A stretch of DNA of 64,000 nucleotides from assembly GCF_030867095.1 (NCBI RefSeq), contig NC_081831.1, positions 64,680,716-64,744,715 on the forward strand. The letters are read 5' to 3'. Under the pieces are notes generated by a model. The model saw only the letters and a program-made list of their open reading frames with translations, made no database searches and was not told where the DNA came from. Within the stretch, counting starts at the first letter, position 1. Every line of letters begins with the position of its first letter. Position numbers and translations under genes: made by a program. Of this stretch, positions 1,058 through 58,700 are shown piece after piece. The stretch comes from Alligator mississippiensis. Taxonomy: Eukaryota > Chordata > Crocodylia > Alligatoridae.

Positions 1058-1256
1058 ATTCTGGTTTCATCAGCTACCCGCCCATCTCAACGTCCCACAC
1101 ACCCTGGGTGACAACAGTGGACAAGGGCACGAGCAGTTCCAGTAGCAGCCACTGGGAATACTCGGGCTCAAGACGTGAGAGGGAAAGGGACCGTGAACGC
1201 GAGAGAGAGCGGGAGAGAGACCGTGACAGGACTCCGACCACGAGTGAATACAACAA
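1058..1256 (+). CDS. FIP1L2: FIP1L2 exon with Arg-Glu/Arg-Asp repeats
   Basis: The acceptor is a short pyrimidine tract ending CTGCAG before 1058; the donor is GTAAGA at 1257. The exon starts in phase 1 and ends in phase 2. It encodes a Ser/Thr/Pro segment, a run of six serines, and then the charged RE/RD repeat typical of FIP1 C-termini. The donor itself supplies an in-frame TAA, so retaining this intron would truncate the protein at once. Confidence 0.78.
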
Positions 1257-2314
1257 GTAAGAACTGTGCTCCATTGGACTCTTCCTGACAGCCTCCCAGC
1301 CAGGGGTGAGGCTCTGCCTACTGAGGGCAGAGTGGGTGTTACCCTGTATGCCACACTGATCATTGCCACTTTAAATAATGTGGGACTCCCAACTTGCAAC
1401 TCTGATCCTTGCTGGGAATAGGCAAAGGACAAGCCCAGGAGTTGAGACTCCTGGGTTCTTTCCCCTTCAACCCTTAACTTTCAACTTTAATCTTTTCAAG
1501 ACACTGCCTCAGTTACTTTGCCATTAATAGCATTCAAATCCAATTAGGTACCTCCCTGGTAAAGGTCTGTGCAGGTTCTGGAGGTTTTGTATCAATGCTA
1601 GCATCCATTGCAGTTCTGTATGCTTAAGATAACACAAGGGAAGAACTGCTGTATTTTCTTGAATTTAAGATGGTGTCCCCTGTCCCTTCTGCCTCTCAGT
1701 CGGCATTGGGGGTGGGGGGGCCTTGTCTTAAATTCACACATGAAACAGGGGGAGGAGGCAGGCAGGTGAGGGCCAGAGTTGGGCACACAGCAGCCTCCTG
1801 CCCCTCACCCTGCTGGCCTTCTGTAGCTTCACCCCCCTGCCCACATTACTGTCAGGCACAGCTTAGCTCTAGCTTAGGTTGGATTCCCTCCCAGGCACTG
1901 ATCACATAAAAACTGTGTTCCCTGCACAGTGAAGCCTCAGGCAGTACAGCTGCGTTGGCACTGCCTGACCAGTCAGCACCACCAACGCTGCTGTGCGGCC
2001 CACTAAAGGCTGAGCTTCCGTGCACTGTGCCTTGGGATGGGGGCAGAGCCCAAGCAGCATCTGGCAGTAAGGGAGGAAAGAGGCAAAGCCTGCAGGGGGG
2101 AGAGGCAGAGATGGGGAGGGGCAAAGGCTGTGGGGAGCTGGAGTTGTGGGGTGCCAGTGTCAGGGAGGATGGGAAGGCTGCAGGGGGGAAAAGTGGGGAA
2201 AGGACAGAGGGCAAGGAGGCCACCTGATTCCACTCCCCATCCTCCTTGCTGTAGCAGTAGGAGGGTGAGGAATTTAAGACAGCCCTCTGATAATTGGATC
2301 CTATACCTGGAAAG

Positions 2315-2358
<44 letters not shown>

Positions 2359-5300: not shown

Positions 5301-8300
5301 CTGCCATATGTCCAGTGCTAATCATTTGTCTTCTGTTGCATGGGTTTTTTCTAGAAGCCTGACAAGCAATTCTGTTTTGTGACACGGCTGAACACACGTC
5401 TGTGTTGGTATAGGAGGGGCTGTAGCTGGGCTCTGTGTGGCAGAGGAATTGGGATTGTAGCAGGGGGTGGTAGAGGGATTGGGGCAAAGTGGCAGTGTGA
5501 ATGGGGAGAGGATACAGTTTATTTCCTGGCTTATGGCATGAATGTCGTTTGGAGTGTGAGAGCTTATATCTGTGAATTCTGTCATCGTGCCCGAGTTCTG
5601 ACCAGTGAAAAATCCAAAACTCATGGTCATGAGGTGGCTCTTCTTTTAACTAGGGGTCTGGTTTATGCCAGTGGGAAATGATTCTCAGTTTAGGAGCAAT
5701 GTAACCTGTGGGTATTTCCCCCAAGAGGGGGGTGTTTTTCCTGGGAGGAGGGAAATGGCTGGTTGGCAGATATTTCCACCTAGGAACACTTACTAGCATG
5801 AGGCCCTTTGAGAATCTGAGGTTTTTATCTGTAGCCATTGATCCCAAGCATGCTGTAGAAGAAGGCAGGCATGAGCATCAATGAAGGACATATCCTCTGC
5901 CTTACTGTCACTTTCTCCGCCCCAAAGTGATGACGAACGATATCGCTACTACAGTCGAGAACGGAGCTATGACTTTGAGCGGGATTACCGTCGCAGCCGA
6001 GACCGCAGCCGGGAGCGGGAGGATCGCCATCGTGAGCGCCGGCACCGAGATAAGGAGGAGAGCAGCAAACACAAGTCTTCAAGACGGTAAGAGTCCTCCT
6101 TGGTGGAGCTGCTGGGAGCTGATGTTGGCCCAAGATAGGACAGCTAAGGCTTCAGAGCAGACAGGAACTCTATCTGTACTAGCACAGAGATGGACAGTGT
6201 CCAGTGCATCGTGCTTCAGAGGAAGGCAGCTCCATCAGTGATGCTCCTGGCCAGAAGCTGGATCTTTCTGTTACGGAGGGAGCTGCTTTGTTTTTGTAGG
6301 TTCTTTGTGGGGGCAACTAATGGGATCTCAACACTGTTCCAGATCACACTGTTTGGCCCCCAGCAAGATCTGACCAACAGTGGATTTAGCACCAGAAGAC
6401 CCTAAGAAAACCTGTAATGCTTTAGCTACCCTAGGAAAGCATAGCTTTGTTCTGCTAGAAGCCTCAGCCCCAAGATTCAGCTTCGTTGTGCAGAAAATGA
6501 AGCTGTCTCAGTTCCCAAGTGGGGTGCAATGCAGTGACTACTGAGCCACTGCCCTAGTCGCATGATCAGAGTCCATTCCAAGCTGTCTGTCATTCTGGGC
6601 CTAAACCGACAATGCTCTGACACTGATGTCACTAGTTTGAACATCAATATAAATTCCACCAGGATCCATAGTAGACAGATGAGCAGCTAGTTGGGGTAGT
6701 TTTACACAGTAAGTGCTATTACAGTGCCTCACCACTAGGTGGCAGGAAGTAGTGAATAATAGCCTACTTGCTTTTGAGCAAATGGCAACCCAAGGATAGG
6801 CCACAGACAGGACACATGCACCAGTAGAGTTTTCTTGTTTTGTTTTATTTTACCCTTGATTTCTCCTAGGATAGTTCTGTGCCAGGTTTGGATAAGTATC
6901 AGTGCAGGTTATATGTTATACCACCTTTTTTACATGCTGGTATGAAGTCCTTTGTGATGTTGCCCGAGTTGCTTTGTGCTTCAGTTTACCTACTAATACG
7001 CTGTAGATGAGGATGCCTTAGATAAAATGTCATTCCTGGAGCAGATCTGGATGTCCATGACTCCTAACTTGATTTAAAGCAAAACTGACAATTTGCTAGT
7101 CTTTAATTGATCCTTCCCACAATAGCATATCTCCCAACACATTTACAAACTAGTCAGAGGGGACCAGCAAGCATTGGGGGAGTCCCTGTTCCCTCCCGAG
7201 CACTCCCAGGAGTGACAAGAAATAACGGTCACAAGCTGGCAGAGGGTAGATTTAGACTACATATCAGGAGGCGCTACTTCACAGTCAGGGTGGCCAGGAT
7301 CTGGAACCAACTTCCAAGAGAAGTGGTGCTGGCTCCTACCCTGGGGGTCTTTAAGAGGAGGCTAGATGAACACCTTGCTGGGGTCGTTTGACCCTAGTAC
7401 TTTTTCCTGCCATGGCAGGGGGTCAGACTTGATGATCTGCTCAGGTCCCTTCCGACCCTACCAACTATGGAACACAAGGCCCAGGCTAGAGTTCAGACAC
7501 CAATTCAGAATTGATACACTACAAAACTTAGATAACAGGGTGATGGTCATCCTCCTGACAACCTGGGTAGACTTCCAGGGTTTCAGTGCTTCAAACTATT
7601 TTCTTATTGGAGGAGGGAGAAGAATATTGTCAGCTTAATATGTAACTGATGCCCTTGCTTGGAGAGTTGGATTGAGAAGGTTCTTAATAGTGTCTGGAGA
7701 CAGAGGTGACTTCTTATCCTTTAGGATGTGCATTCATTTCTGCCAGGGAGTTCTGACTGCTGTATGCCTGAAGAAGAAGTGATGGAATCACCCAGAAGGG
7801 GCAGTGGAAGTAAACTGAAGCTGATAGTTTTTAATAGCAACGCTCGGATGATTTTTATGAATGGGTATTTCTTAGCTTTCATAAAAATGGCTTCCTAGTT
7901 CTAGAGAAACACAGTGGCATAATAGAAATACAGGACATCACCTGGTTGTCCAGGCTGTCTGGAATCCACTGAGACTAGGCCAGAAGCTATTCGAGGGAGA
8001 CGCTGGGGAACTCAGCCACAAAGTGCTGGGCGAAGGAAGCCATGTGGAGATTTTTTCCTTTGGCCCGCTCTAATGGCAAACAAAAGAAATGCTCCTTTTA
8101 TCCTTCAGCCCAGAATACTTGGACAAGACGTGCCCATTAACCCCCATGGTAGAATTCATGGTGGCTTTTAAAAAGTGGCTCATATTATAATTATTACATT
8201 TCAGAGCCTAGTGCTTGAGGTCTCACCTTAGTGCCACTTGTGTTGGGAGGAGGTATGTGCTGCAGTCCCCCAACTGGCTTTCAGTGGGTTGCCCCAGTCC

Positions 8301-9922
8301 TAGAGAAAATCTGACCTGTTTCTTGGAAAAAGCCCCTTATTTAAGTTTCCCAAGTATTTAAGAGAAAGGGTAGTCAGATAGTACAAGCTAGAAGGAGTGG
8401 GTCCTAGTTCTGGCCATTAATGGTCAGTTCCAGTATGGACAGTACCTCGCCTGTGAGTTGTTTGGCAGGCTCTTGTCAGTGTCTAGGAAATGCTTTAAGA
8501 TGCTCAGAGTGGTAGTATTTGGCCATTAACATGCCAAGAATATTTGTTTGGCTTATGATTATCCCATTAGTGAAAAAGAAGGTTAGAAACAGATTTACAG
8601 CCTGTGGGTTTTCATCCAGGGCTTTAGCAGCTTGGCAAGATGAGCACCTGGGCTGCTAGCCTAGGATGTCAGTTGTAATAAGACATGCATGTCACACCTC
8701 ATAAACAAATGTTTAAATCTCATTTGCCTTCTCCCACAACTACAATCCTACTGCATTTTGACCCTCACCCAGTAAATCCAAAGAGTTCAATTTGGGCACG
8801 TCTGCACCACCAGTCCTGGACCGGGACCGCCACAGTAAAGTATGCCATGCCCACCTAGCCACGACTTCTTGTTTTCGGAAGCAGTGCATATTTCAGTAGT
8901 GCTGGACAGATGCCAGCAAGCACATCCCCTCCAGGAGCCTGGCTTGCCTCCTGCCATTAAGGCAGCTACGTTACATCCATTTCAGGAGGTGGCACATTTG
9001 GAGTGGGTGTCTCACTTCCCTGTGGTGGTCCTTGTGCTGAGAGAGATGTTTCCATTGTGTTCTGTATTTCAAATCTGCCTATAGAGACACTTGAAGTAGG
9101 AAAGAACCACCCAACCCTATTTCCTGCAGACTAAGAGCCCAGGGAGGCAAAGTTCAATCCTGGTACAAAGCCAGGTTTCCCTCCTTAGTAGGCTGAGGTA
9201 GAAATGGGACCTTTCATCTCTAGGAAGCCAATGCTTCTGGGCAGCTGGATTAGTTTCTTCCTTTTCAGTCTGAGATAAAATATCATAGGTAGACTTTTCC
9301 AAGGGGTCTTAAACCTTTAACTTTGCAGACTGACCACTAAGCAGAAGTAGTGCACAGTATGCACTCTCTCTGCTTCCAGTAATTACTGCCAGCTCCAGCA
9401 GGAGGAGGGAAGCCAAATTAGTCCTAAAGGAAACTTCTATAAACCATTCCTTCTTCAGTCTCCCTCAAACACGTGGTACCTGCCCGTTATGTGATGGTGC
9501 AGTGTGGCATGATAGATGCATTGTTACACATATAGGGTGATCTGCATAACCTACCCCCAGTTCTGACACTCATGAGTAATGAGACCACCCCAAGCAAGGG
9601 GTGGGAGAAGTTTGGTCACATGGTGAAGAGGGGGTGTACAATTTCTTTCCTGTTTTATTCCAGATTTCACACAGGGCACCCATACTGGCACCTCTGGATT
9701 TTATTTTAATCTTCTTCTGTGGCAATCAAGTGTGCTGACACTTGTCTCTGGTTTCTTTACCCTCCCCTTTTTTTTCACTCCCACTACAGTAAGCAGCATG
9801 AAAGTGAAGAGGGTGAAAGTCACCGGCGCCACAAGCACAAAAAGAACAAGCGTAGCAAAGAGGAGAAGGAGACCAGTGAAGATGGTGTCCCAGAGGGGGA
9901 CGAACAGGATGCCAAGGAGTAG
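1058..9922 (+). CDS. FIP1L2: FIP1-family pre-mRNA 3'-end-processing factor, last three coding exons (probable FIP1L2)
   Basis: This is the C-terminal part of a FIP1 homologue, a subunit of the nuclear cleavage and polyadenylation factor CPSF. In the known family it binds U-rich RNA and recruits poly(A) polymerase. Joining 1058-1256, 5928-6086 and 9790-9922 gives one open frame. It starts with a W-V-T-T-V-D / H-W-E-Y stretch like the W...VD...QWDYY segment of FIP1L1. An Arg-Glu/Arg-Asp repeat follows, then DDERYRYYSRE, RHRERRHRDKEE and HESEEGESHRRHKHKK, all close to the FIP1L1 C-terminus. All splice sites are GT-AG. It is tail to tail with an LNX gene. Several positions differ from FIP1L1 as I remember it, and the neighbour looks like LNX3, so I favour the paralogue FIP1L2. 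FIP1L1 itself is the alternative. The N-terminal Fip1 motif lies outside the window. Confidence 0.8.
2316..2357. repeat. (GT)n microsatellite
   Basis: About 20 uninterrupted GT dinucleotides followed by a run of G. It lies in the FIP1L2 intron and is likely length-polymorphic. Confidence 0.95.
2690..3605 (-). mobile_element. CR1 LINE, 3' fragment with reverse-transcriptase C-terminus
   Basis: The - strand encodes about 227 residues of CR1-type ORF2 3' coding, with segments such as LVRPQLEYCIQFWVPHFKRD and RRLRGDLVAVYKLVKGD. The CR1 3' end is at about 2690, where the text reads as the complement of a 'GGTCCCTTCCGACCC' type terminus. The 5' end is truncated, as usual for CR1. It is non-autonomous and sits antisense to FIP1L2. 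Confidence 0.93.
4121..4347. mobile_element. hAT-type non-autonomous DNA element
   Basis: The ends are inverted (CAGAGGTTCTCAAA on the left, TTCGAGAACCCCTG on the right) and flanked by 8-bp duplications, CCATAATC at 4113-4120 and CCATAAGC at 4348-4355 (7 of 8 match). An 8-bp target duplication with a CAG-type terminus is the hAT signature. No transposase is encoded. Confidence 0.85.
4552..4732. repeat. Tandem duplication, 89-bp unit, two copies
   Basis: A segment beginning near 4555 and containing ATAGAGGATCAGC recurs exactly 89 bp later. I see one mismatch across the unit. The second copy ends where the hAT-like element starting at 4729 is inserted. Confidence 0.93.
4729..5029. mobile_element. 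Probable hAT-type element with degraded right end
   Basis: The left end (TAGGGGTTCCCAACC) and the body (GGACCAGCAGTGGCCAT, TCACTTCCGGTCCAGCAGCC) match the better-preserved element at 63557-63808. An 8-bp direct repeat CCCTAAAC occurs at 4721-4728 and 5030-5037, as expected for a target duplication. The right inverted end is no longer recognisable, so the right boundary rests on the direct repeat alone. Confidence 0.65.
5928..6086 (+). CDS. FIP1L2: FIP1L2 penultimate coding exon
   Basis: The acceptor is a pyrimidine tract ending CCCAAAG; the donor is GTAAGAG. The exon completes an AAT codon and then encodes DDERYRYYSRERSYDFERD, an RS/RE block, and RHRERRHRDKEESSKHKSS. This matches the FIP1L1 segment SDEERYRYRE...RHRERRHREKEE, but has a longer RS-rich insert. 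It ends in phase 2. Confidence 0.88.
6087..9789 (+). other. FIP1L2: FIP1L2 last intron
   Basis: A 3.7-kb intron bounded by GTAAGAG and a T-rich tract ending CACTACAG. Apart from a CR1 3' fragment at about 7137-7475 it is unremarkable unique-looking sequence. I see no further exon. Confidence 0.7.
7137..7475 (+). mobile_element. CR1 LINE, short 3' fragment
   Basis: It reads in the sense direction through the CR1 ORF2 tail (ARIWNQLPREVV, LGVFKRRLDEHLAG) into the 3' end, with GGTCAGACTTGATGATCTGC and CTTCCGACCCTACC. The 5' part is truncated. It is the same subfamily as the copy at 63341-63530. Confidence 0.92.
9790..9922 (+). CDS. FIP1L2: FIP1L2 terminal coding exon
   Basis: The acceptor CACTACAG ends at 9789. 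The exon completes an Arg codon and encodes KQHESEEGESHRRHKHKK, a Lys/Arg-rich nuclear-localisation-like stretch, and an acidic tail ending DEQDAKE before TAG at 9920-9922. The HESEEG.SHRRHKHKK core is the most conserved part of the FIP1L1 C-terminus. Confidence 0.92.
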
Positions 9923-10888
9923 AAGACCCACGGCCGGCCGTCGGGAGGGACTTGCTCCTCTGTCACCAATGCGGCGTCTGCATTGTTTTTTTTACTATAT
10001 TCCGAGGGAAGCAGAGAGGACTCTGGCCAGCTATTGAAGCATGTCATGACAACTCGAGCCTACGGGATGCACATGCAGTTAGACTTTTTTGATATGGGAC
10101 AAAAGTACGGCAGTAATAGCATACGAAGCACTGAGCTACTCTACTTGTCAATGTTCTTTCATCGTATCAGATCCTATGGTTTCTGATGGAAGATGGCTTC
10201 AGCTGAAACTAACGCATTTATGTGATAGGCTTTTTTCTTTTCTTGCAACCATCGTTCCTTTTTTTAAGAAGTAGGACAGTAACTGCAACTTGAAACTTCT
10301 TGTCCAAAGAAAAGTGTGATTTTAGGTCCTCTTGAGAGTCAGCTTAGAGTCTGACTTCTATTAGTAAAGTCCCATCCCCCGAGTCAATTTCTTTATAGCT
10401 ACTAAAGTATCTATAATTTCTTTGTGGCAGGATTGGCAGCATGCGGGGAGGAACTACTTCATTGGTTGGTTAGTTTGAACCTGCTTTGGTCTAATGGCTC
10501 TTAAAAGCTGTTAGGTGTGTTTACAAAGGGCATTCAAAGACTTCAAATCCAGCTTCTTTTTTTTGTTTTTTTTTGGGGGGGGGGTTTTTTAAAGTCCATT
10601 GCAAGCCTAGTTCTACCATGTCACACCTGTAAATGGGAAGTCCCATTCTGTGGAAGACTGTAGTGACAGCATGAGTTTCTTTTTGATTAGAATTGGTTAA
10701 CTTTACCTCTTTTTTTTGTGGGGGGTGGTGGGAGGGGTAACAATTTAAGATGACTTATCTAGCACGTTAGGGAACATGAAGCCTCATCCAGCAGTCTGCC
10801 ATTGTTGGATTGGCTTACATATATTCAGACATCACCAACACTCCTGTGCAATGTATCTTCCCCCTCCTCCCCGCACCATAGATTTCAG

Positions 10889-10894
10889 AATAAA
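10889..10894 (+). terminator. FIP1L2: Poly(A) signal AATAAA, proximal candidate
   Basis: AATAAA lies 967 bp after the stop codon. GT- and T-rich sequence follows within about 30 bases (TTTGGTTTTGATTTAG), fitting a downstream element. Confidence 0.5.
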
Positions 10895-11290
10895 TGCAGT
10901 CAAATTCCACATTTGGTTTTGATTTAGTTTTTTGGGGGTCTTTTTAAATAGAAAAAATTTTCAGTGGAAAAGGGGTGGGACTCTGGGGTTTTTTGGTACA
11001 TCTTATTAAACAGAACACTGCACTTCTGTTTGTGTGAATTGCAGGCATTTCATTTTTAAGTACCTTCCATTTGTATTAACTGTTATTTAAGAGTGTCTAC
11101 AATCCCTTCCTCAAAATAAGCTAGTTCTGAAATTTTACCTTTTTTTTTTTTTATCGTATTCATGCAAGTCTGAGTATTGTGCAAAGCTTACAACCTTTGA
11201 AACGTGAGCCAGTAGAGCATTGTGATATTGGTTTATATACTATGACCATGCATTTGATGGGTCAATAAGTACAAAACCTACAAGGAGGAG

Positions 11291-11296
11291 AATAAA
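11291..11296 (+). terminator. FIP1L2: Poly(A) signal AATAAA, distal candidate
   Basis: AATAAA followed by a T-rich stretch and GGTAAATGTGACC. It lies about 1.37 kb after the stop codon. Confidence 0.5.
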
Positions 11297-12809
11297 GCAA
11301 TTTTTTGGTAAATGTGACCTTTTAAAACTTTCTTAAATATATTCTCATTGTCTTGAAGCAGCAGAGGCCTGTATGCAATGAATTCTGAGACCACGGTCCA
11401 AGGGGAAAGGCTAAAACCACATTTCACTGTTTTATTTTGTTGTTTCACCCTTTTAAGTGCCCTATGCAGCCATTTCTCAACTTTAACAGACCAATTTGTT
11501 TGATATTTTTACCAGGAGCCAGACCATGGCAATAGTGACCAGCTGTTCTGATGATGTCTGCAAAGATTTGGCATCTGTTCAGTTAAGGTAATAGGGCCAT
11601 AAATATTATTGCAATTGGCTCCTCTGGCAAGGCAGGCCAGGACATGGCTGAGAAGGAATGTAGGGAAAGACTTTTTCAGTAGCATTATTCCTGACTAAAA
11701 TCGTTTTCCAGCCATGTTCGTTTGGCAGCTGTTTGTGAGCCCAAGAGGAATTTGCTTTTGGAACATGGAATTAAAAAAAAAAACAAAAAAGTGGGGATGG
11801 AGGGCAAGTTTAGAAGGATCAAAGAAGGATTCAAAATGTCTTGCATTCATTGAAGTTTGTATTATCTGGGAATACCTGAAAACCATGTCTTAGCAACCAG
11901 TGCTGCATACCTGATAGTGTGTACCCTTCAGTTCTCAGATCTCAGCAGGGGGGAATTCCAAGTTGCTTGCTCCCTCAACAACTTTGATATTTTACAGCTC
12001 TGTTTGATTGTTTCTCATAATACTGTATCTGACAGACAGGACAGGTGAGTGCTATGCCATGGCTCAAGATCCCAGGCCTCATCCTTGCATTCACCAGTGG
12101 TAATAAGGCTGGAATCTTACCCTTGTTTCAGAATCTTCCTTTAGCTGTCATCACACCCTCCTGTCCCTGCATTCAGACTGTGCAGTGACTCTTTGGGGAT
12201 GAATGGGCTGCTGTGTGATTTTTTTACAGGGGTCTGGCCCACTTTCCCCTCACCTTCCTGCAGGTGCAGGTCATGTCTGTGCACATACTGAATTCCTTCT
12301 CCACACACCTGCTTCATCATGGTTACTTAGTATACAGGGAAAGAGATATGAAATCTTGTTACAGCACCAGTCTTCACACTCCTGTATCTGTTGATCTTTC
12401 CTGCCTGCTTCTAGCTGTTACTATTAGTGGATCTACAGTATCGGTTGGCAATGAGAGGCAGAGGCTTAGATTTGTCTTATCTGTAATAACTTGGCAATGG
12501 GGAAGGAAACTCTGGCTTATAGCTAGAGGATATTTTACTGGAGAAATGTTTTTGCTACAAGTGAGCTATTTGTTCAGAAGCAGTTTGCACCTGTTTTTGC
12601 AAACATTTTCTAGAAATTTTCAGCGCTTTGACCAGCTTTAGCTGGATGCAGTCCCGGTGCCAAGGACAATCCCATTGTGAAACTGGTAGAAGGCAATTGT
12701 TGGGTCCACTATATACAACTAGGGGTATAGCACATACAGGGCTAAGTACATACCATAAACAAAAGGATGAGTTTAACACTTATACAAATTGGATACTTAT
12801 GCAAATTCT

Positions 12810-13905
12810 TATAGATTTATAGATGGTTGGGTTGGAAGGGACCTTATCAGATGAAATCGAGTCCAACCCCCTGCCCTGAGCAGGAAAGAGCACTGGGGTC
12901 AGACAGCCTCAGCCAGGTGCATGTCTAACCTCCTCTTGAAGACCCCCAAGTTAGGGGAGAGCACCACCTCCCTTGGAAGCCCATTCCAGATTCTGGCAAC
13001 CCTTACCATAAAGAGATTCTTCCTAATGTCTAACCTAAGTCTGCTGTCCATCAGTTTGTGACTGTTGTTCCTAGTTACTCAAAGGGGTGCCCTGGTAAAC
13101 AGAGCATCTCCTATTCCTTGCTCTTCTCCCTGATGAATTTGTAGGCAGCCACAAAATCACCTCTTAGCCTTCTCTTGTGGAGGCTGAAGAGAGCCAGGGC
13201 CCTCCATCTCTCCTCATAGGGCCTTGCCTGCAGGTCCCTAACCATACAAGTGTCCCTCCTCTGGACCCTCTTAAGGTTGTCCACATCCCTCTTGAAGTGC
13301 AACGCCCAAAACTGAATGCAGTACTCCAACTGTGGCCTGACCAATGCTGCATAGATTGGAAATATCACCTCCCTGAACCTGTGCGTCATGCACCTGCTAT
13401 TGCATGATAAAGTGCAGTTAGCTTTACTGATTGCTTTGTCACATGAACATGAGTTGTCAATCTTGGTGTCAACAATGAGATCCTTTTGTGGTGCTGAGAA
13501 GGTCAGCCCCTAGCCTGTACGCATGCTGGTGATTCCCTCTCCCTAGGTGTAGCACCTTGTACTTGTCCTTGTTGAACTGCATCCTGTTCTGTTCTGCTCA
13601 CTTTTCCTACCTGTCCAGGTCCACTTGGATTCCTTCCCTACCCTCTAGTGTGTTAACTTTACCCCATAATTTAATATCATCTGCAAATTTGGACAGAGTG
13701 CTTCCCACGCCCTCATCAAAGTCACTGATGAAGACCTTGAACAGCACAGGTCCAAGGACCAAGCCTTGTGGGACTCCACTGCCCAGATCTTTCCAAGTCA
13801 ATACCAACCTATCCACCAACACTCTCTGGGTGTGACCCCCTAAGCCCATTTGCCACCCACCTGACAGTGTAATCATCTGCATCACAGCCACTCAGTTTCT
13901 CTGTG
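12810..13905 (-). mobile_element. CR1 LINE, 3' fragment with RT core
   Basis: The - strand encodes SGVPQGLVLGPVLF, then FADDIKLWG, a variant of the YADD reverse-transcriptase catalytic motif, and further 3' RRLRGDFVAAYKFI. The frame is broken between 13389 and 13607. The 3' end at about 12810 has the CR1 form GGTTGGAAGGGACC seen in complement. It is a dead, 5'-truncated copy. Confidence 0.92.
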
Positions 13906-13979
13906 AGAATAGGATACTAGTCATAGTAAAATGCAGAAGTTTGATTCTGGGTATGCAAAGAGCTAGGAAAGGCTTACAG

Positions 13980-14379
13980 CAATGGTGCCCAACCTTTTCA
14001 GGCTAAATGAGTAGTGCCAGATTAATCCATGGGCTGGATCTGGTCCAGGGGTCTCATCTGGTGTGCAGTGCTGGACCAGCTAGGGCTCAGTGCAGCTGTA
14101 CATGAATAACCTGGCTGGGGCCTGATGTCATGCAGCTGCATCAGACCCTGGTTCAAACCAGTTCCATGGGAACAGGGCCCAATCCCTAAGTATTGAGGCA
14201 GTCCAGCCAGGGCTGATCCAATCACCATAATTTGGCAGCAGGTGAACAGTAACAGTGGTAATAGCCACTGCCAAACTTCCAAATCTGTGGAAGGATTATG
14301 TGACTTTACAGGCCACCGGCTAGATTTTATGATTTTGCAGGCCATATCTGGCCCATAGGCCAGAGGTTGATAGCCCCTG
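13980..14379. mobile_element. hAT-type non-autonomous element
   Basis: The left end CAATGGTGCCCAACC and right end GGTTGATAGCCCCTG are imperfect inverted repeats. The flanking 8-mers GCTTACAG and TGGGACAG share only their last four bases. The body repeats phrases found in related copies, such as ATCTGGCCCATAGGCC. Confidence 0.6.
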
Positions 14380-15291
14380 TGGGACAGGTCCCTTGTGACT
14401 CGCATTTCCCTGTTTGCAGCATGAGACCTATAACCTAAGGCTGGTGGAGTTGACCTATATGAGATGCTTTGATATCCTTAGAGGATGATACCACAGCAGT
14501 GAATGGCTAAAGGTGCTGATTAGGGAGTGTTTCTAAGACAGCTGCATTGCACTAATCGTTACAAAAGGCTGAAGTAAATAAAGCAGCAGGTTCAACCCGT
14601 CTTCAGCTAGTTCAACTCCTTACAGGAGAGAAACCAGGTTTTCCTCTTGCTGGTAGTATAGGACATTCCTGTCTGGGTCTGGCAATGGTGGACTATTTTG
14701 GACTGATGAACAGAACACACGCAGGCCAGCTGTCTCTGCTAGTCATATTAAAATAATTTATAAAGGCATCCAAACAATTCAACACTTAAACAAGATTCAG
14801 CAAATCCTTGTGATGCAAACAATATGTAGTTGCTTAGATTTTTTGGTGATGCTAAAGGCACCTTGAAACGAGATGGAGCAATAGTAAAACCATGCTGCCT
14901 TTTTACAGCATCCCCTTCATTTAAAAATACATCCAACTGCCCTCTGCATTGCTGCTTACAAGGCAAAAAAATGTTGCAACAACAGGAGATTATTTTCAGC
15001 AATAAATGCCCACCTTTTAAGTACCCAGCCAATAGATATTTGGACTATCTAGTGCTCCCTGCAGAACTTGCTTTAAGTAACTTTTGTACGGAAGAGACAA
15101 AAATTAAGTTCTGCGTTTTCTTCACTTCAGAGGGAGGCTGATTGATTTGTTTTACCACAAACACCTGGCTGACTTCTGAATTATTTTAATCTTGCAATTG
15201 CTGAAGAATGTCAGGAATCAGTGTCTAAAGGTCCAGCTAGTCTAAGAAAACTCCTGTAGTCCAAATCCATAGGAATGGATATTGGCTAAAC

Positions 15292-15547
15292 CAGTGATTC
15301 TCAACCAGGGTGCCAAGGCACCTAGGGTGTGCTATGAGATCCTTTGAAAGGTGCTACAGAAAGCGTGAAGAGATAAGCAGACAATGGCAGGCTCCGGCTC
15401 TCTTTGCCTAGCCATTCCCCTGCCTCCACTGGCCCAGCCCCTCTGCAAGGAGGTAAGTGCTATAATTTAGTTTTTGAAACGGGGTGCTGCTCAATTTGCA
15501 AAAGTAATGGAGGGGAACCTTAAGTCTAAAGAGGCTGAGAACTGCTG
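15292..15547. mobile_element. hAT-type non-autonomous element
   Basis: The ends are CAGTGATTCTCAACC and, in complement, CAGCAGTTCTCAGCC. The flanking 8-mers GGCTAAAC (15284-15291) and AGCTAAAC (15548-15555) match at 7 of 8. No coding content. Confidence 0.85.
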
Positions 15548-16555
15548 AGCTAAACAATGTTTCATGAGCACTAGAACCTAAACTATTTGTTTTGAAAAGG
15601 CTTTGATAAGAGTCCTTACATACAGCTTGTAGCTAACAGCCATAAGACAGCAAAGTCACATTGTGTGTAAACCATTCACAATTTACAGCAGAACAGAGTT
15701 CTGTTCCTTGCTAATAGCAAACTGAAAAGTTCATCCCGCACTGCTCTTATTTTACAGAATGGACCCCTCTAGTCCGCTGCACTTAAAGAACTGGACAAGG
15801 AAATTGAGTTGTTCTGCTTTCTGCTATAGCCCAAGCCACTCCTGACAGCTAGAGAAATCATAACATGTCTTGTTTTAAATTGAGCCTGATGTAAGAGACC
15901 CTCAGTCATTTTTACTAATGATTAAGCTTCCATAGAAAAATGAGAAATTCCTATATATCCTGAATGTTTCAAATAGTCTATTATTAACGTGTCATAGCCA
16001 GAATAAAGCCTTGGCTTTCTACCTTGTGTTTTATAATTCTGCTTTATAGTGCATCAATCTGCCCAAACCAGCTCCTCTGTCATTTTGGAAGTAGGTTTTT
16101 CAGCATTCACTGGGTAAAAGTGTAGCTGGAGATGCTGGTACAAAGTGTGAGCATGCTCTACTTGACTCAGGGAAAATGAGTTGAATAGGAGAGGCAGCTA
16201 ACCATCTCCTTCAGCCTACTGGGAAACTAAGGTCAAGGAACACAATTACCTCCTCAGGGCAGATGTTTCTTGGGAGCAAACTGGTCCATTTAATGTAGAC
16301 AGCCGTGTATCTACATGACCAATCCTGGTGGGTTCATTAGTCACTATCAAGGAGAGAGAAGTTGCAGGAGTTCTTGAATTTGAATCCCTTCAGCTGACAC
16401 TAGGATGGGGATTTTCACACAAGTCAATGCAGTATGTTAGGGTGGCTCAGTAATTCAATTTACCTAGCACCAGAAGGGTTATATCTTACTAACTCATGTG
16501 CTAGAAATGTGAACACCATTAGCTATGAACCATTTCATTGGTCCATGTCCTTATT

Positions 16556-16561
16556 TTTATT
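16556..16561 (-). terminator. LNX3: Candidate LNX3 poly(A) signal
   Basis: TTTATT on the + strand gives AATAAA on the - strand about 490 bp after the LNX3 stop codon. There is no independent support, and other sites further on are possible. Confidence 0.3.
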
Positions 16562-17052
16562 AGCAACTTTTAAAAACAAAGACAATGACTTGAATAAAGT
16601 GTCCAAGAATGCCAGCCAGCCAGCAAATGTTAGCTTGCTAGGTTACTTGATTTTTCTTATGGACACTAGTTTGACCAGGAATTAAAACATCACCTGAAAA
16701 AAGTTGACAACTATAGCTCAAGACGCAGATGGACAATTCCTCTTGGATCGTGGGAAAAATAACTGTCCCTACAATTATGATGAGTTCTAATCAGTACAAG
16801 AAGCTAGTGAAGATACAGCTCCAAGCTGCTAGCATATTGTACCTTAAAAAAAATCAGATGCATCCACAAGTTGCATTAACTTTCTGAACGGTATGGAAAT
16901 GTTTTCTTCAAAGAGGAAGTGAAAGTCTAGTGCACACCGTGCCAGGAGTTCGTGGTTTCCTTAGTAAGTGTCACATGATGGGCTGTCAGATCAAGCAAAC
17001 TAGCATCAGAGGGGCTCACAGATTTCGTGAATACACATTTTTGTTTTGGTGT

Positions 17053-17188
17053 TTACACAAGACTTCCAGGCCAGGACACCACAGTAAGAATGACTTTGTT
17101 CCTTTGTTCTTTCAGCATGGGGATCAGCTCTGAATTGCTCATTCCTATGGCAGGTACTGCATTTACTGCCACAATTTCATCTCCACAC
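17053..17188 (-). CDS. LNX3: LNX3 exon 10, end of PDZ4 and stop
   Basis: The acceptor on the - strand is a T/C-rich tract ending TGCCTAG at 17189-17190. The exon completes a Lys codon, then encodes [18 protein letters not shown] and [18 protein letters not shown], ending GSLV and TAA (17053-17055). The -SLV end matches LNX2 and has the form of a C-terminal PDZ-binding motif. Confidence 0.92.
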
Positions 17189-41100: not shown

Positions 41101-42611
41101 CCACTATATGTATATGTACACCCACAGCCCCCTGCCTGCCCCAGCTGCCAGGGACCCAGGTCTCCCTGGCCCCCAGCAGCGGACGAGCCCTGGCTGCTGC
41201 CCACAGGAGGCAGCAGCTGCTGCAGTGGAGCAGAGCATGGAGTCTGCCCCCACCCCACCCCCCGGGCTTGGGTAGGGGGTGCTCCCGTGCCCCCAGGTCT
41301 GTGCGTGAGGCAGGCTGCCCGCTGTGACGCAGGCTCCCCACCCTGCTCCCCTCCCCCAGGGCCTCTGCAGCCCAGCAGGTGCAACCCAGCGCTGCAGGGC
41401 AGAGCAGGGCCAGGCAGGGAAGCTCCTTGCCACTGCAAGCTCTGCGCTGCCCTGGCAACACGTCCCCTGCCTGCACAGCGGCAGCGGTGTGGGGTTGTGC
41501 CCTTTGCTGCTGCCACACGGGCAGGGGAAATGTCACCAGGACAGCACGGAGCATGCACAGATCTGGGGGGCACAGGTCCCCCATCTCGGGAGTGCACACA
41601 GCGGTGGGGAGCCAGCCCACCCGTGGCCCTGTCCCACTCGCCGCTGGGGCCCTGTGGCCACGCTTCCAGCCACAAACCCCCAAGCCCCTCACACCCCCTG
41701 GCCGAGCAGCTGCCCCAGCCCTGCTGAACTTATTCTCTCCCTCCTTATAGGTGCCTCAATTCCCCCCCCGCCACCACCAGACCTACGTGCAGGAGCTGCT
41801 CCCCAGGCTACCTGGTGGCCATGTGCATATACATGCACATGGTGCCCCCTGTCAGACTGCCCTCCTCCCGCTCCCCCAGCCCACTGCAGGCTGCAACTCT
41901 ACCAGCCTGTAGAGAGCTCTTTGCAAAACTGCAATATCCACGGGTTTCTGTGTTAAAATGAAACATCTGCATTTTCTTCAGGTAAAGGTGGAAATCCACA
42001 TTTTTCTCCAGTCTTCCATGGGAAACAGAAAACCCAGATCCCTGGTCATCACCCTCCTCACTTTCGGACCCCTCCCTCTTTCATTTCCATCTGGTGCTCC
42101 CATTTTAATTTAGCTTATTAACTCTTTCGAGAACTAGTCTCTCTCTGTCTCCACTAAAAACTGTAATGTGGGAGTCATTTATATAAGCAATTGGTGGTAA
42201 CATTACATAAACACACATGCACCTGTTCTGTAGATGAGCTTCTAGCTGACACCTCTGCATGGTCTCCTGGCATAGCGTGTGGAAAGGACAGAGGACAATC
42301 AGCTTATCCAACAGGTTCCTTACTAGAAGGCTGGACTTTCGACAATGCTGGAAGCACAGTTTTTTGCGATCCATGGGGCAAAAATTACGCTCCTGCATGA
42401 AGTTCTCAAGGCACCTGAAACAGTACGTGTGTCCACACGGGGTATCCATAGGGTGAAGCAAAGGCTGAAGGCAGATATGGCAAATCAATTCATCATCCAC
42501 TTCATCCTGGAAATTATAAAGATGATTTTCTGATAACAGGTGAAACTGGCCACATTCAGGACAAAGTTCACTCATTTTGGAGACCTGTTCTTCTGCTGTA
42601 GGGTCAGCCAT
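17053..42611 (-). CDS. LNX3: LNX-family RING/PDZ E3 ubiquitin ligase, complete coding region (probable LNX3)
   Basis: Nine coding exons join in consistent phase to 2,040 nt, 679 residues plus stop; human LNX2 is about 690. Order: C-x2-C pair (17, 20); RING with C44, C47, C59, H61, C64, C67, C78 and D81; TRAF-like zinc finger (about 108-131); NPAF (197-200); PDZ1 (about 218-303), PDZ2 (about 322-408), PDZ3 (about 463-550), PDZ4 (about 588-672); C-terminus WPGSLV. All RING ligands are present, so it should be an active ligase. LNX1 and LNX2 bind and ubiquitinate NUMB through the NPxY/F and PDZ1 regions. NPAF, the WPGSLV end, and PDZ segments such as [18 protein letters not shown] resemble LNX2 more than LNX1. 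The FIP1 neighbour is wrong for LNX2 but right for LNX1, so the third paralogue LNX3 fits best. It is a cytosolic scaffold with no signal peptide or membrane segment. Confidence 0.87.
17189..19092 (-). other. LNX3: LNX3 intron 9
   Basis: The donor is GTATGT at 19092 downward. The intron holds an old CR1-like fragment at about 17885-18330 and otherwise unique-looking sequence. Confidence 0.7.
17885..18330 (+). mobile_element. Old CR1-like LINE fragment
   Basis: It resembles CR1 3' coding and terminus in the + direction: AAGAAGGATGTAGAGAAACAGG, TGGAACAAACTGCCTAGACAGG and TTGAAGAGGCTGGATATCACC correspond to degraded ORF2 phrases near the CR1 end. It is strongly diverged with frameshifts. Confidence 0.6.
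19093..19251 (-). CDS. LNX3: LNX3 exon 9, first half of PDZ4
   Basis: The acceptor is a pyrimidine tract ending TTTCCAG; the donor is GTATGT. It encodes [28 protein letters not shown], and [19 protein letters not shown]. The SWGF loop is the PDZ carboxylate-binding motif. The corresponding LNX2 text is [19 protein letters not shown]. Confidence 0.93.
20520..20660 (+). mobile_element. SINE-like repeat fragment
   Basis: It contains AGCACCTGACGAAGTAGACT and CTACAAAAGCTTATGC. This is the 'CTGACGAAGT...GAAAGCTTATGC' text common in repetitive sequences of turtles and crocodilians. I cannot name the family precisely. Confidence 0.5.
20935..21755. mobile_element. Candidate TIR-bounded DNA element
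   Basis: The left end has GTAGTGGGCTCTTTAATGTGC with ATTAGCTTAATTTTAATG. The right end has GCATTAATGCACATGTAGAG and GTGCCCACTGAC, roughly its inverse. Inside are several further inverted ATGTGCATTA units near 20950-21040. No transposase is seen and the boundaries are approximate. Confidence 0.45.
23590..23990 (+). mobile_element. CR1 LINE, 3' fragment
   Basis: The 3' end reads TAGGTTAGACAGGTATTTG, GCCTCAGGCAGGGGCTTGAA and CCAGAGGTCACTCCTGGCCC, the usual CR1 terminal text. It is a 5'-truncated old copy of the same type as 38830-39170. Confidence 0.8.
25478..25688 (-). CDS. LNX3: LNX3 exon 8, end of PDZ3 and linker
   Basis: The acceptor ends CATCAACAG; the donor is GTATGTT. It encodes [38 protein letters not shown], and the linker with [16 protein letters not shown]2 has [20 protein letters not shown] and SWSPSWVMWLGLP at these places. 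It ends in phase 2. Confidence 0.93.
25689..25879 (-). other. LNX3: LNX3 intron 7
   Basis: A compact 191-bp intron with donor GTAAGG and acceptor CATCAACAG, the shortest in the gene. It has no repeats. Confidence 0.9.
25880..26054 (-). CDS. LNX3: LNX3 exon 7, first half of PDZ3
   Basis: The + strand here lies inside an unrelated open frame, so the exon has to be read from the other strand. The acceptor ends CTTTGTAG and the donor is GTAAGG. It encodes [38 protein letters not shown], and [20 protein letters not shown], then one base of a Gly codon. Its length (175 bp) gives exactly the phase exon 8 needs. SLGI is the PDZ3 binding-loop motif. Confidence 0.93.
26055..28451 (-). other. LNX3: LNX3 intron 6
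   Basis: A 2.4-kb intron with donor GTAAGTGC. It contains the 768-bp hAT-type element at 27137-27904; the remainder shows no named feature. Confidence 0.75.
27137..27904. mobile_element. hAT-type non-autonomous element, 768 bp, GC-rich core
   Basis: The termini are TAGGGCTGTCAA and, in complement, TAGTGCTGTCAA. The flanks are TAAAAAAC (27129-27136) and TAAAAAGC (27905-27912), an 8-bp duplication matching at 7 of 8. The subterminal arms are AT-rich with repeated ATTAATCG-like words, and the core is very GC-rich. Open frames in the core are compositional and show no transposase motif. Confidence 0.85.
28452..28628 (-). CDS. LNX3: LNX3 exon 6, end of PDZ2 and serine-rich linker
   Basis: The acceptor ends TTTTCTGGCAG; the donor is GTAAGTGC. 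It encodes [13 protein letters not shown], closing PDZ2, then a linker with six serines written almost entirely as AGC, then [23 protein letters not shown]2 has a serine-histidine linker at the same place. The exon is 59 codons, phase 0 at both ends. Confidence 0.9.
28526..28546. repeat. LNX3: Coding (GCT)n/(AGC)n trinucleotide repeat
   Basis: Uninterrupted TGC units on the + strand, AGC on the coding strand, encode the polyserine of the PDZ2-PDZ3 linker. Length variation here would stay in frame. Confidence 0.85.
28700..29547 (+). mobile_element. Candidate solo LTR
   Basis: It begins TGTGGCAGGGCACTGC and may end ACTGAAACA, so it has TG...CA form. A TATA-like CTATATAAAAACAG at about 28794 is followed by G/C-rich transcribed-looking sequence. 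No primer-binding site, polypurine tract or internal coding region follows, and I could not find a target duplication. It could instead be another GC-rich repeat. Confidence 0.4.
29775..30056. mobile_element. Probable old hAT-type element
   Basis: The left end CAGTGATTCTCAAGC matches the element at 15292. The right end GGTTGTGAGCCACAG is its imperfect inverse (11 of 15). No convincing flanking duplication. Confidence 0.45.
31408..31776 (-). CDS. LNX3: LNX3 exon 5, end of PDZ1 and most of PDZ2
   Basis: The acceptor ends CTCCCGTAG; the donor is GTAATT. It encodes [11 protein letters not shown], closing PDZ1, a linker, and PDZ2 with [40 protein letters not shown] and [17 protein letters not shown]2 has HKRDSGEQLGIKLVRRTDE here, while LNX1 has a different KSSPEEQ opening. 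Exactly 123 codons, phase 0 both ends. Confidence 0.94.
31777..34215 (-). other. LNX3: LNX3 intron 4
   Basis: A 2.4-kb intron. From 33622 to about 34190, within roughly 25 bp of the exon 4 donor, it is filled by a repeat. The rest (31780-33620) is unremarkable. Confidence 0.7.
33622..34190. mobile_element. hAT-like GC-rich repeat next to a splice donor
   Basis: It starts CAGGGGTGTCAAACAT, the same end as the element at 60210, and continues as GC-rich degenerate repeats of GGTCCTG/GCATGCTGG type words. The right end is not clear; exon 4 begins at 34216. Confidence 0.5.
34216..34412 (-). CDS. LNX3: LNX3 exon 4, first half of PDZ1
   Basis: The acceptor ends GTCACAACCAG; the donor is GTAGGC. 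It encodes [59 protein letters not shown] and PGDHILE. ELGM is the PDZ1 carboxylate-binding loop. TIEI and NIVVQE resemble LNX2 (TIEI, NIVIQE) rather than LNX1 (SIKI, HIIIQH). Confidence 0.93.
34413..36367 (-). other. LNX3: LNX3 intron 3
   Basis: A 1.95-kb intron with donor GTGGGA. It holds one arm of the large inverted repeat (35225-35766). The rest has no named element. Confidence 0.75.
35225..35766 (+). repeat. Inverted repeat arm A, about 542 bp
   Basis: It is nearly identical, in reverse complement, to 43383-43926. The only clear difference is a block of about 12 bp near 35387-35396, where arm B has a second GTGCTGTTTTT unit. It contains AATAAA twice near 35500 but no coding. The family is unknown to me and could be an LTR or another young repeat. 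Confidence 0.93.
36368..36594 (-). CDS. LNX3: LNX3 exon 3, linker with NPAF motif
   Basis: The acceptor ends CTCTCTAG; the donor is GTGGGA. It joins exon 2 as [17 protein letters not shown], parallel to LNX2 NRCPGASHRRVALERRK. After a low-complexity Ser/Ala stretch it has [14 protein letters not shown], parallel to LNX2 EPGLDNPAFEES. NPAF is the NUMB-PTB-binding motif; LNX1 carries NPAY. Confidence 0.93.
37130..37700. mobile_element. GC-rich interspersed repeat, hAT-like right end
   Basis: An abrupt change from AT-rich to GC-rich sequence with lost CpGs. The right end reads AAAGTTGAGAACCACAG, the inverse of the CTGTGGTTCTCAAC type hAT terminus. The left end is not identified. It resembles the cores of the elements at 27137 and 41022. 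Confidence 0.45.
38830..39170 (+). mobile_element. CR1 LINE, 3' fragment
   Basis: It ends with GCAGGGGGTTGGACAAGATA, GGAGGTCCCTTTCAGCCC and TCTATGATCTGTGATCT, the CR1 3' text. The upstream part GGGGTCAGGGAAAAATTTTACC belongs to the same fragment. Confidence 0.85.
39870..40010 (+). mobile_element. SINE-like repeat fragment
   Basis: It has GTAGCTGTCATAGCTACAAG, GGTCCAGGGAATATACAAGC and TTTCAGGCACAAAATGTCC. These words recur at 53425, 60062 and 60755, so this is an interspersed family. I cannot assign it a name. Confidence 0.55.
41022..42045. mobile_element. Candidate TIR-bounded GC-rich element, about 1 kb
   Basis: The left end is CCAGAGACCCGGTTTTCCC; the right end in complement is CCAGGGATCTGGGTTTTCTG. 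AT-rich subterminal arms surround a GC-rich core (41130-41900) whose several long open frames are compositional. The architecture parallels the 27137-27904 element. No clean target duplication. Confidence 0.5.
42223..42611 (-). CDS. LNX3: LNX3 exon 2, coding part: start codon, RING and zinc finger
   Basis: I start at the ATG at 42611 ([16 protein letters not shown]) because it has A at -3 and G at +4. An in-frame ATG at 42623 has a poor context and would add four residues. It encodes [45 protein letters not shown] and [10 protein letters not shown]. The RING has C3HC3 ligands plus Asp as in other LNX and TRAF proteins. Confidence 0.93.
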
Positions 42612-42693
42612 GATGTCCAGCATAAAGCAGCGGTGAGGCAGGAGAAACAAGTCTGCCAATTTAAAGAGCGGAACCGGTGATCTTACAGGATTC
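42612..42693 (-). other. LNX3: LNX3 exon 2, 5' UTR part
   Basis: The acceptor is a long CT tract (TCTCTCTCTCCCTTTCTC) ending TTAAAG at 42694. The exon therefore has about 82 nt of leader before the chosen ATG, including the weaker in-frame ATG at 42623. Confidence 0.8.
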
Positions 42694-43219: not shown

Positions 43220-44110
43220 TTCCTTCCTGCTAGTTCTGCTGCCTTCTGACGAGATGCAGGGCTCGCGGTGGCGGCAGCGTTCCCCCATGCTGCCCCCGTG
43301 GCGCGCCCCACAGCTGACGTCACTGCCGGGCTCGCAATGGGGACAACGCTGGCCCGCTGAAAGAGTCCTGCAGCTCACAAGGCCCATTTTGACACTAGGG
43401 AAATTCAGCCCCCTAGCCCACAGTTATCCGTGCATAAGCCACGTACTCTGCACCAATTAAAACGACAGGTTAGAAGCTCAGAAATCACCCCCTTGCTGTA
43501 CTGCAAGGACACAAAGTGCATGCCTCTCCCTAACGGCCACTAAGCATTTAAACAGGCCAAACAGTTAGTACAAGGAATTGGCTCCAATCTCATCTTGATA
43601 TTATGTTTGCCCCTTTGGAGAGGCAATTGTCTATTTATTACAGATTTATTAATTAATATTTCTTCTCTACTGATAACAAACAGAAGTTTATGGCCTATAT
43701 TAATGCTTGGGTTAATCACTGGAGGAGAAGGCTTGTTGTGCTGCCAGTAACTAAAAACAGCACTAAAAACAGCACTGCTTGACTAAACCTCTACAACGCT
43801 TGACAGCACATTTCAGAATCCTTTTCTTAAACTTATGTTTGTGCCTAGGCAAGATTGGGCTGGGCAAAGAGGGGAAGTGGGAATATGTCTGCTGACTAAC
43901 CTAGGTAACATGTAGGTTAGTTTGGCAGTGGCAGGTGTCCCTGCTGCCCTGGCTGCCAGCCCTGCAGCAGGGGCAGCATTCCCAGGGCTGCCCCTGCGGT
44001 GAGCCTCGCAGACCACGGGCTTGCGGTGGGGGCAGTGCGGGCAACCGCTGCAGGCAACACTGTCCCTGCTGCTAGCCCCGTCAGCTGTGGAGCTTGAAGC
44101 CACAGGAGCC
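43220..44110. mobile_element. GC-rich repeat interrupted by arm B
   Basis: The left part (43220-43382) and right part (43927-44110) are both GC-rich with shared wording such as GGCTCGC(A/G)GTGG, GGCAGCGTTCCC / GGCAGCATTCCC, and GCTTGCGGTGGGGGC. The AT-rich arm B sits between them, so arm B appears to have inserted into an older GC-rich repeat. Confidence 0.5.
43383..43926 (-). repeat. Inverted repeat arm B, about 544 bp
   Basis: The reverse complement of 35225-35766, near-identical over its length. It lies in LNX3 intron 1, upstream of exon 2. See arm A for the single block of difference. Confidence 0.93.
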
Positions 44111-48011: not shown

Positions 48012-48029
48012 AATAATGATCCTTTAAGT

Positions 48030-48144: not shown

Positions 48145-48164
48145 CTTTAAGCACTGCTCTATGC

Positions 48165-57100: not shown

Positions 57101-57166
57101 CAGTGGTTTGCAAACTTCTAAGACTCAAAGCACCCGTCATGAGGCCCCCCCTCAGAAAGCGCTGGC

Positions 57167-57200
<34 letters not shown>
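57101..57200. mobile_element. hAT-like left end with poly(A) run
   Basis: CAGTGGTTTGCAAACTT is a typical hAT-type left terminus. It is followed by about 29 A residues (57170-57199), after which no matching right end is seen. A deleted remnant. Confidence 0.5.
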
Positions 57201-57201
<1 letters not shown>

Positions 57202-57378
57202 GAAAATTAACTACAGAAACAAAATGGAGCAATCCTTCTGTAGCAAAGAACTACAGCCCCCCCAACATTTGGTTAATAACTTGATGCTATTGGGTGCCTG
57301 TACATGCGAGGGGGATTTAGTCCTTGGATTTGTGTTGGAAATCTCTGGGTAGATCTCGTGAATCACCTTTGCACACCC

Positions 57379-57925
57379 TAACAGTGATAACACTGCATGG
57401 TACCCTTAAAAGGAGCTCAAGATCTCCCCTAGTAATGCTAGCATGGTGTGTCACCCTTCAAAGGATCTCAAGGCCCTCTGGGGTGCCACAGGCCCCCTGG
57501 TGCCACCCTTCAAAGGATCTCAAGGCCCTCTGGGGTGCCACCCTTCAAAAGATGTCAGGGTCTCCCCAGCAGTGCACAGCACTTTTAAAAGGAGAGACCC
57601 TTGAGACCCCCCCCCCCCCGGGGGACTGCAGGTCTTCAGTGGCACCCTGAAAAGGATCTCAACCCCCCCCCCCAAGCAGTGCGAACATTGTGTCACCCCA
57701 CAACACCCCAAAACGTATCTCAAGGTCTCTCCAGCAGTGCTAACATTGCGGGGCACCCTTAGAAGGAGCTCGAGCCCCTCGGGGAGCTCCATGAAAAGGA
57801 CCCCCCCCCCCCAGTGCTAGCATTGCACAGCACCTTTAAGAAGAGCTCAAGGTCCCCCGGGGTGCTGCAGGTCTCCGGCGACGCCCTGAAAAGGATCCCG
57901 CTGCCTCCGGGGTGCCGCAGCCCGG
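57379..57925. repeat. LNX3: Degenerate minisatellite beside the LNX3 promoter
   Basis: About nine or ten imperfect units of roughly 40-70 bp share the core CACCCTTMAAAGGATCTCAAGG with linkers like AGCAGTGCTAACATTG, plus runs of 9-14 C. It begins about 150 bp from the exon 1 donor in intron 1 and merges into the CpG island. On the transcribed strand it is G-rich. Confidence 0.85.
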
Positions 57926-58700
57926 GCAGGCGCAGGCCCCGAGGAGAGGCGGTGCGGTGCGGGTGCGGGGAAGCCGTCCCGGCTGCTGCCGGAGTCCCCG
58001 GGGAGCGGCGCGGGGCGGCGCGGGGCGGGACTCCCCGCCCGCACACGTCACCCGCAGCCCGCTCCCGCCCCGCTCACCTGCTCCCCGGCGCCTCCACCCG
58101 CCGGGGCCGCGTGTCCCCGGGGAGGAGGGGGGGCTGCAGGCGCCCCTCGCTCGCAAGCAGGTCCCCCCGGGAGCTCACCTGGGCTGGGGGTCGGCTCGGC
58201 GGCTCCTCCGGCAAGTTTCCGGGCGGAGGAAGAAAGTCGAAACCAGCGCGAGGGGGAGGAGGCAGCGCAGCCGCCCAGGTGCCTGCCCGAGCCCGCCCGT
58301 CCGCACCTGGCGCCGGGGCCCCCCGCCCCGGGCAGCGGCACCTGGCACCCGCCCCGCTCCCGGCACCGGGCACCTTTGTGCCCCCCGCCTCGCCTCGCCT
58401 CGCCTCGCCCGGGGTCCCCAGCCCCTGCCCCAGTGCCCGGGGAGGGGGCACCAGGTCCTGCTCAGTGCCGCCTGGCGCACGTCCACCTGCGCTGGGGCTG
58501 CCCTGGTCAGTCCTGTACCGAGGCAGCGGTCCCGGGGAGCAGCACAAGCCCCAGGCCGCGGAGGTCCCAAGCCCAAGCCGGGTCCGAGCTCAGGGATGCA
58601 CCGAGGCCCAAGCCAGGGGGTGGGAGGAGGTGGCTGGGCCAGCACTCCTGCTGCAGGCCTGGTCGGCCGCTCTGTGTCCCTCCCGTCCCTTGGCAGATGG
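57840..58700 (-). promoter_or_regulatory. LNX3: CpG-island promoter of LNX3
   Basis: The window's only dense, undecayed CpG cluster, with many GGGGCGGGG/CCCCGCCC boxes, a (CGCCT)4 run at 58386-58409 and no TATA box. It lies 15 kb upstream of the LNX3 start codon and contains two strong - strand splice donors. A divergent + strand transcript is possible but no + gene was found. Confidence 0.75.
58078..58300 (-). other. LNX3: LNX3 non-coding exon 1 (inferred)
   Basis: On the - strand, GGGGAGCAG|GTGAGCGG gives a near-consensus donor with the exon ending at 58078. A second good donor, AGCCCAG|GTGAGCTC, would end the exon at 58179. The transcription start is not visible, so the upper boundary is a guess. 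Confidence 0.5.

Follow-up and report, generated by a model that had tools for sequence, protein, structure and literature searches.

Among non-coding RNA loci assembled from defunct protein genes, the X-inactivation centre is the textbook example. Does the alligator keep a protein-coding version of this locus, and which members of the FIP1 and LNX families occupy it? These questions are raised by 64,000 nucleotides of Alligator mississippiensis DNA (NC_081831.1, 64,680,716 to 64,744,715), which we call the window; it lies on a chromosome-scale contig (C8) of an assembly of 2.35 Gb in 195 contigs. We conclude that the window almost certainly holds the 3′ end of FIP1L2 and the complete coding part of LNX3 (LNX2b) in convergent orientation, within an unbroken coding block, probably CDX4-CHIC1-FIP1L2-LNX3-RASL11C-USPL. 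Both this gene family and its connection with Xist had been described before. The alligator block is likewise known in kind, the chicken and frog locus having been published, and is a well-preserved further example.

A tail-to-tail pair of coding genes

Nine LNX coding exons lie on the minus strand of the window, from 42623 down to 17053 (64.7233-64.6978 Mb of the contig), and join in one frame of 683 codons plus a stop with no break. Each of the eight introns has an AG acceptor and a GT donor, at exon borders picked by hand to fit. A deposited alligator protein matches the product at 100% identity across all 683 amino acids and, therefore, the exon model is not a product of chance. The nine in-phase exons of the original prediction are thus real, and its figure of 679 residues holds as a count from the second ATG (the inner MADP); the full model begins at MLDIMADP and has 683.

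Coding exon 1 (42223..42623), recognized by its match to the solved structure 5din, contains the start and a zinc finger-RING-zinc finger module. In the gene model, exon 2 (36368..36594) encodes a linker with the NPAF motif, exon 3 (34216..34412) the first half of PDZ1, exon 4 (31408..31776) the second half of PDZ1 and most of PDZ2, and exon 5 (28452..28628) the end of PDZ2 and a serine linker. PDZ3 is split between exons 6 (25880..26054) and 7 (25478..25688) and PDZ4 between exons 8 (19093..19251) and 9 (17053..17188), the last of which ends in WPGSLV directly before the stop. Pfam finds PDZ in four stretches of the protein and RING above its cut-off. The nearest solved structures are the RING modules of LNX2 (5din, E = 6.2e-56) and LNX1 (5h7r, E = 4.7e-48), and the zinc fingers on either side of the RING are assigned by their match to these two. 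The Cys/His columns of the module, some of which would bind zinc, are invariant between the window protein and approximate sequences of human LNX1 and LNX2.

The gene could be a rightly named LNX3 that has decayed or fallen silent. However, all nine coding exons are unbroken, and the protein retains 83-86% identity to its bird and turtle orthologues, rising to 87-94% in the PDZ domains. We take this conservation as a sign of long purifying selection and regard a dead or silent copy as very unlikely.

The pair had been predicted to extend to 58300. LNX coding sequence ends at 42623, and beyond it, out to 58300, we found a CpG island alone. This island (about 57751..58500; GC 0.75-0.80, CpG o/e 0.75-0.77) is the single stretch to pass thresholds of GC >0.55 and CpG o/e >0.65 in 500-base windows, and it may be the LNX3 promoter or a candidate non-coding exon 1.

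The FIP1 gene enters the window on the plus strand. Its third-from-last coding exon (1058..1256), rich in serine and RERD, has AG/GT borders, is in phase with the next exon and matches region 377-425 of an approximate FIP1L1 query (E = 3e-12). The second-last (5928..6086; DDERYRYY...RRHRDKEE) also has AG/GT borders and is in phase, and the last (9790..9922; KQHESEEGESHRRHKHKK...DAKE and the stop) matches the C-terminus of the approximate FIP1L1 query (E = 1.4e-8). From its stop at 9922 the rest of the gene extends left beyond the window; on the contig it runs from about 64.648 Mb to 64.6906 Mb on the plus strand, the first exon being matched weakly (E = 0.025), with both the Fip1 core and the FIP1 C-terminal region matched. 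As predicted, then, a FIP1 C-terminus faces a complete LNX gene tail to tail, the two stops being 7130 bases apart. The interval (9923..17052) presumably comprises the 3′ UTRs and a spacer, with 10 poly(A) hexamers on the plus strand and 5 on the minus strand.

Repeats also occur in the window. An inverted repeat of about 543 bases (35225-35766 and 43383-43926), with arms identical save for a few bases near position 165, flanks the RING and NPAF exons and may reflect a mobile element or a duplication. Fragments of the reverse-transcriptase type found in LINEs lie in several copies on both strands (2686-3621, 7107-7473, 12855-13509 and 63293-63538) and are, by their motifs, presumably CR1-like. 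An 89-base tandem duplication, 99% identical, occupies 4552-4729.

Paralogue identity and neighbouring genes

We placed the LNX protein in an unrooted IQ-TREE phylogeny of 35 rows, built under a mixture model without an outgroup. The rows were hand-picked for vertebrate spread (20 from the best 120 of 1258 matches and 15 from the best 120 of 1921), and those of LNX1 are all mammalian. Three groups, each on one side of a branch, emerge: LNX1 (7 rows, support 100/100), LNX2 (8 rows, 100/99) and a third group of 20 rows that includes the window protein (100/100). The third group takes in sharks, gar, amphibians, reptiles, birds, echidna, koala and Tasmanian devil, and three of its rows (coelacanth, Heptranchias and gar) are named LNX2b at source. 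Identity of the window protein reaches 86% with a turtle protein, 83% with an eagle protein and 82% with tuatara LNX3, compared with 56-57% for LNX2 (57% for that of Alligator sinensis) and 50-51% for two LNX1 rows. A tree of LNX1, LNX2 and LNX3 had been proposed as the check on the LNX3 assignment, and it sets the protein outside both LNX1 and LNX2 with 100/100 support.

For the FIP1 gene, we combined a 494-residue composite of exon translations from the alligator's own genome, which is incomplete, with 28 of the best 120 listed proteins. Fourteen FIP1L1 rows fall on one side of this tree at 100/100 and the window gene falls with the other 14; its best identity, 96% over 475 columns, is with a painted turtle protein. 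By this placement, away from FIP1L1, the gene is FIP1L2.

The regions at 64.590-64.682 and 64.743-64.843 Mb were searched by tblastn with approximate human queries. The FIP1 side holds CDX-type first exons at 64,552,480 and 64,582,632 of the contig. These tandem CDX4-like exons, 30 kb apart, are both open, with 92% identity in protein and 84.7% in DNA over 785 bases, and a homeodomain end piece follows them at about 64,591,375; CDX4 seems to be duplicated in the alligator. A CHIC gene on the same side (64.617-64.638 Mb, plus strand) has four exons that are 90, 85, 80 and 75% identical to an approximate CHIC2 query. Its C-terminus (QKLLEW, CETSNMM, KYPIFRPD) presumably fits CHIC1 over CHIC2. 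Beyond LNX3 lie a RASL11 gene (64.8057-64.7955 Mb, minus strand; best exon E = 6e-41) and, in the next 10 kb past 64.843 Mb, three plus-strand exons of a USP46-like gene with 81-89% identity. An approximate WASF3 query detected no WASF-like gene in 64.590-64.843 Mb (E ≤ 0.01); over the following 10 kb it gave no hit at E ≤ 1 and one match at chance level (E = 4.0).

The locus therefore presents the family order CDX-CHIC-FIP1-LNX-RASL11-USP46-type. Chicken and Xenopus Lnx3 are reportedly part of a proto-X-inactivation centre, as Duret is said to have described in 2006. Elisaphenko 2008 (PMC2430539) gives the order CDX4-CHIC1-FIP1L2-LNX3-RASL11C-USPL for chicken and Xenopus. At the level of gene families, this agrees with the order and convergent orientation that had been predicted, and the proposed check of the flanks returned CDX-family and CHIC genes on the FIP1 side and RASL11 and USP46-like genes on the other. 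By family match and place, we infer that the outer neighbours are CDX4, CHIC1, RASL11C and USPL.

One part of the prediction was wrong, namely that a FIP1 neighbour cannot fit an LNX1 locus: at human 4q12, FIP1L1 and LNX1 are likewise convergent neighbours. The window gene might thus be LNX1 beside FIP1L1 in a paralogous cluster, and two paralogous clusters are described in PMC5577775. It is the tree together with gene order that decides identity. The LNX tree sets the window protein apart from the seven LNX1 rows, one of them marsupial; the FIP1 gene is off the FIP1L1 side of its own tree; and a CHIC gene and CDX-family exons occur together on the FIP1 side. On these grounds we consider LNX1 a very improbable identity.

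Still less credible is that the gene is LNX2, as its deposited name says. In the database the protein carries a name of the type "ligand of Numb protein X 2" or "LNX2-like", and among the named rows in the best 120 of 1258 matches, LNX3 of sauropsids and amphibians is mostly labelled LNX2 or LNX2-like. The protein is also nearer to LNX2 than to LNX1, and NPAF and WPGSLV are common to most LNX2 rows. However, Alligator sinensis and Crocodylus porosus have separate LNX2 proteins, which the tree puts in the LNX2 clade, apart from the window protein, and an LNX2-like exon occurs elsewhere in the alligator's own genome, on another contig (C1, 428.268 Mb), 0.33 Mb from a CDX-family exon at 427.939 Mb. 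By eye, this exon seems to have the same borders as LNX3 coding exon 4. The two motifs, present as predicted, fail as marks of the paralogue. Mammalian LNX2 rows have NPAF (6/6) and WPGSLV (5/6), in contrast to NPAY and WPGSLI in both crocodilian LNX2 proteins, while echidna LNX3 has NPAY and one opossum LNX1 has NPAF. They were dropped as a diagnosis.

Membership of the third clade and the gene order therefore identify the window gene as LNX3, or better LNX2b, the name proposed in PMC3162930, where LNX3 is called confusing as it also denotes PDZRN3. The tree shows the database name, LNX2, to be misleading for the alligator protein, and it hides alligator LNX3 from work on the origin of Xist.

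LNX3 exons and Xist

In PMC2430539, LNX3 exons are described as similar to XIST, with chicken exon 4 resembling XIST exon 4, and chicken Lnx3 has two 5′ UTR exons and exon numbers up to 11. Nine coding exons plus two 5′ UTR exons make eleven, so that alligator coding exons 1, 2, 3 and 9 would correspond to chicken exons 3, 4, 5 and 11; this chicken numbering is inferred. By clade and order, the alligator gene is the same gene as the one behind the predicted "forerunner" of the X-inactivation centre. It is a living relative of the Xist precursor and not the precursor itself.

XIST exon 4 folds, according to PMC12101419. The NPAF exon, the putative source of XIST exon 4, can form a long hairpin, and the locus might conceivably already make an Xist-like regulatory RNA in reptiles. 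A 101-base part of the exon, chosen afterwards, gives z = -2.15 in sense (5/200 shuffles as low) and z = -4.0 in antisense (0/200). Over the whole exon, however, z is 0.80 and 90 of 200 synonymous-codon shuffles fold as low. For the best 101-base window, synonymous shuffles are as low in 59/150 cases in sense and 4/150 in antisense; in antisense none of the eight other exons falls as low, but five of them are also at or below 24/150. On the sense strand it is the RING exon that ranks lowest (3/150). In addition, the residues encoded by one arm of the hairpin differ in birds, lizards and marsupials. Rfam gave 12 matches over the window at E ≤ 5 and one over 36300-36700 at E ≤ 10, no Xist family among them. 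With the sense strand inside the range of synonymous shuffles and the antisense low in many exons, we judged an Xist-like hairpin in the NPAF exon not shown, and an Xist-like RNA from this locus is extremely unlikely.

The open-access literature yielded no paper joining Xist, the exon 4 hairpin and Lnx3, nothing relevant on alligator LNX3 and, among the matches listed, none linking crocodilians to the X-inactivation center, Xist or Lnx3. The accepted account of the origin of Xist is unchanged by the alligator locus. Its value lies in the good preservation of this crocodilian copy and in what it suggests about how old the tie to FIP1L2 is: alongside chicken, the block can serve as another proxy for the ancestral sequence when pieces of Xist are traced to LNX3.

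Age of the linkage and comparison with known systems

To date the pairing, we compared 37 LNX rows and 36 FIP1 rows, each from best-120 lists, with 26 species in both; FIP1 and LNX3 rows on contigs equal in size to the base were counted as sharing a contig. This held in 25 of the 26 species, or 25 of 27 once coelacanth is counted, where linkage means the same contig and adjacency would be a stronger claim. The exceptions are Cetorhinus, whose listed FIP1 rows are named FIP1 rather than FIP1-like and fall outside the tree, and coelacanth, whose LNX2b contig has 46,623,732 bases and whose only listed FIP1 row, FIP1L1 by the tree, is on a contig of 432,068,277 bases. Of the 25 linked species, the tree covers ten, all on its FIP1L2 side (two sharks, gar, bowfin, lungfish, axolotl, caecilian, echidna and two squamates). 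Both sharks have a second FIP1, on another contig, that groups with FIP1L1.

PMC2430539 has Fip1l2 inserted in an ancestral amphibian. The shared contig seen in sharks, gar, bowfin and lungfish speaks against this, and PMC5577775 reports an LNX3/USPL/WAVE1 cluster in gar and coelacanth. We think it likely that the FIP1L2-LNX3 pairing is ancestral to jawed vertebrates and not a tetrapod novelty, that teleosts lost or moved FIP1L2, and that the alligator block has stayed unbroken. If so, the published insertion would be wrong, and the linkage in sharks and gar would point to an earlier origin of the pair.

Alligator LNX3 is most likely a RING E3 ubiquitin ligase, judging by its relatives. Its zinc finger-RING-zinc finger module would transfer ubiquitin, and NPAF and the four PDZ domains would choose the substrates, which may be Numb or membrane or transcription proteins. 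In eutherians, by the published account, this gene is no longer in frame and supplied parts of Xist. A review, PMC7373230, states that LNX1 and LNX2 bind Numb via NPAY/F and that in zebrafish Bozozok is ubiquitinated and cdx4 repressed by Lnx2b. One of the genes under Lnx2b control in zebrafish is therefore a former neighbour on the chromosome, a noteworthy coincidence.

Among known systems, the closest is Lnx3 of chicken and Xenopus, which in PMC2430539 is the same gene in the same order, and the nine coding and two 5′ UTR exons would fit its 11. The alligator differs from this proto-X-inactivation centre in its crocodilian lineage and its doubled CDX4-like exon 1, and no WAVE4 turned up across 64.590-64.843 Mb and the next 10 kb. 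Zebrafish Lnx2b, or Lnx-like, has a RING, NPAF and four PDZ domains according to PMC7373230, as does alligator LNX3; fish LNX2b rows share the third clade with the alligator, zebrafish itself being outside the tree. Fish Lnx2b is also linked to Cdx4/Chic1 in PMC2430539. Its function has been tested in zebrafish (Bozozok turnover and cdx4 repression), whereas that of the alligator protein is predicted. LNX1 and LNX2 have the same domain plan as LNX3, with matching RING modules (5h7r and 5din), but differ from it in identity (50-51% and 56-57%, respectively) and clade, and the alligator's own LNX2 is on another contig. Finally, eutherian XIST is non-coding, unlike alligator LNX3, with no Xist family matched by Rfam in the window at E ≤ 5. 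In PMC2430539, it is nevertheless flanked by CDX4/CHIC1 and by RASL11C and USPL remnants, neighbours from the same families as in the alligator block.
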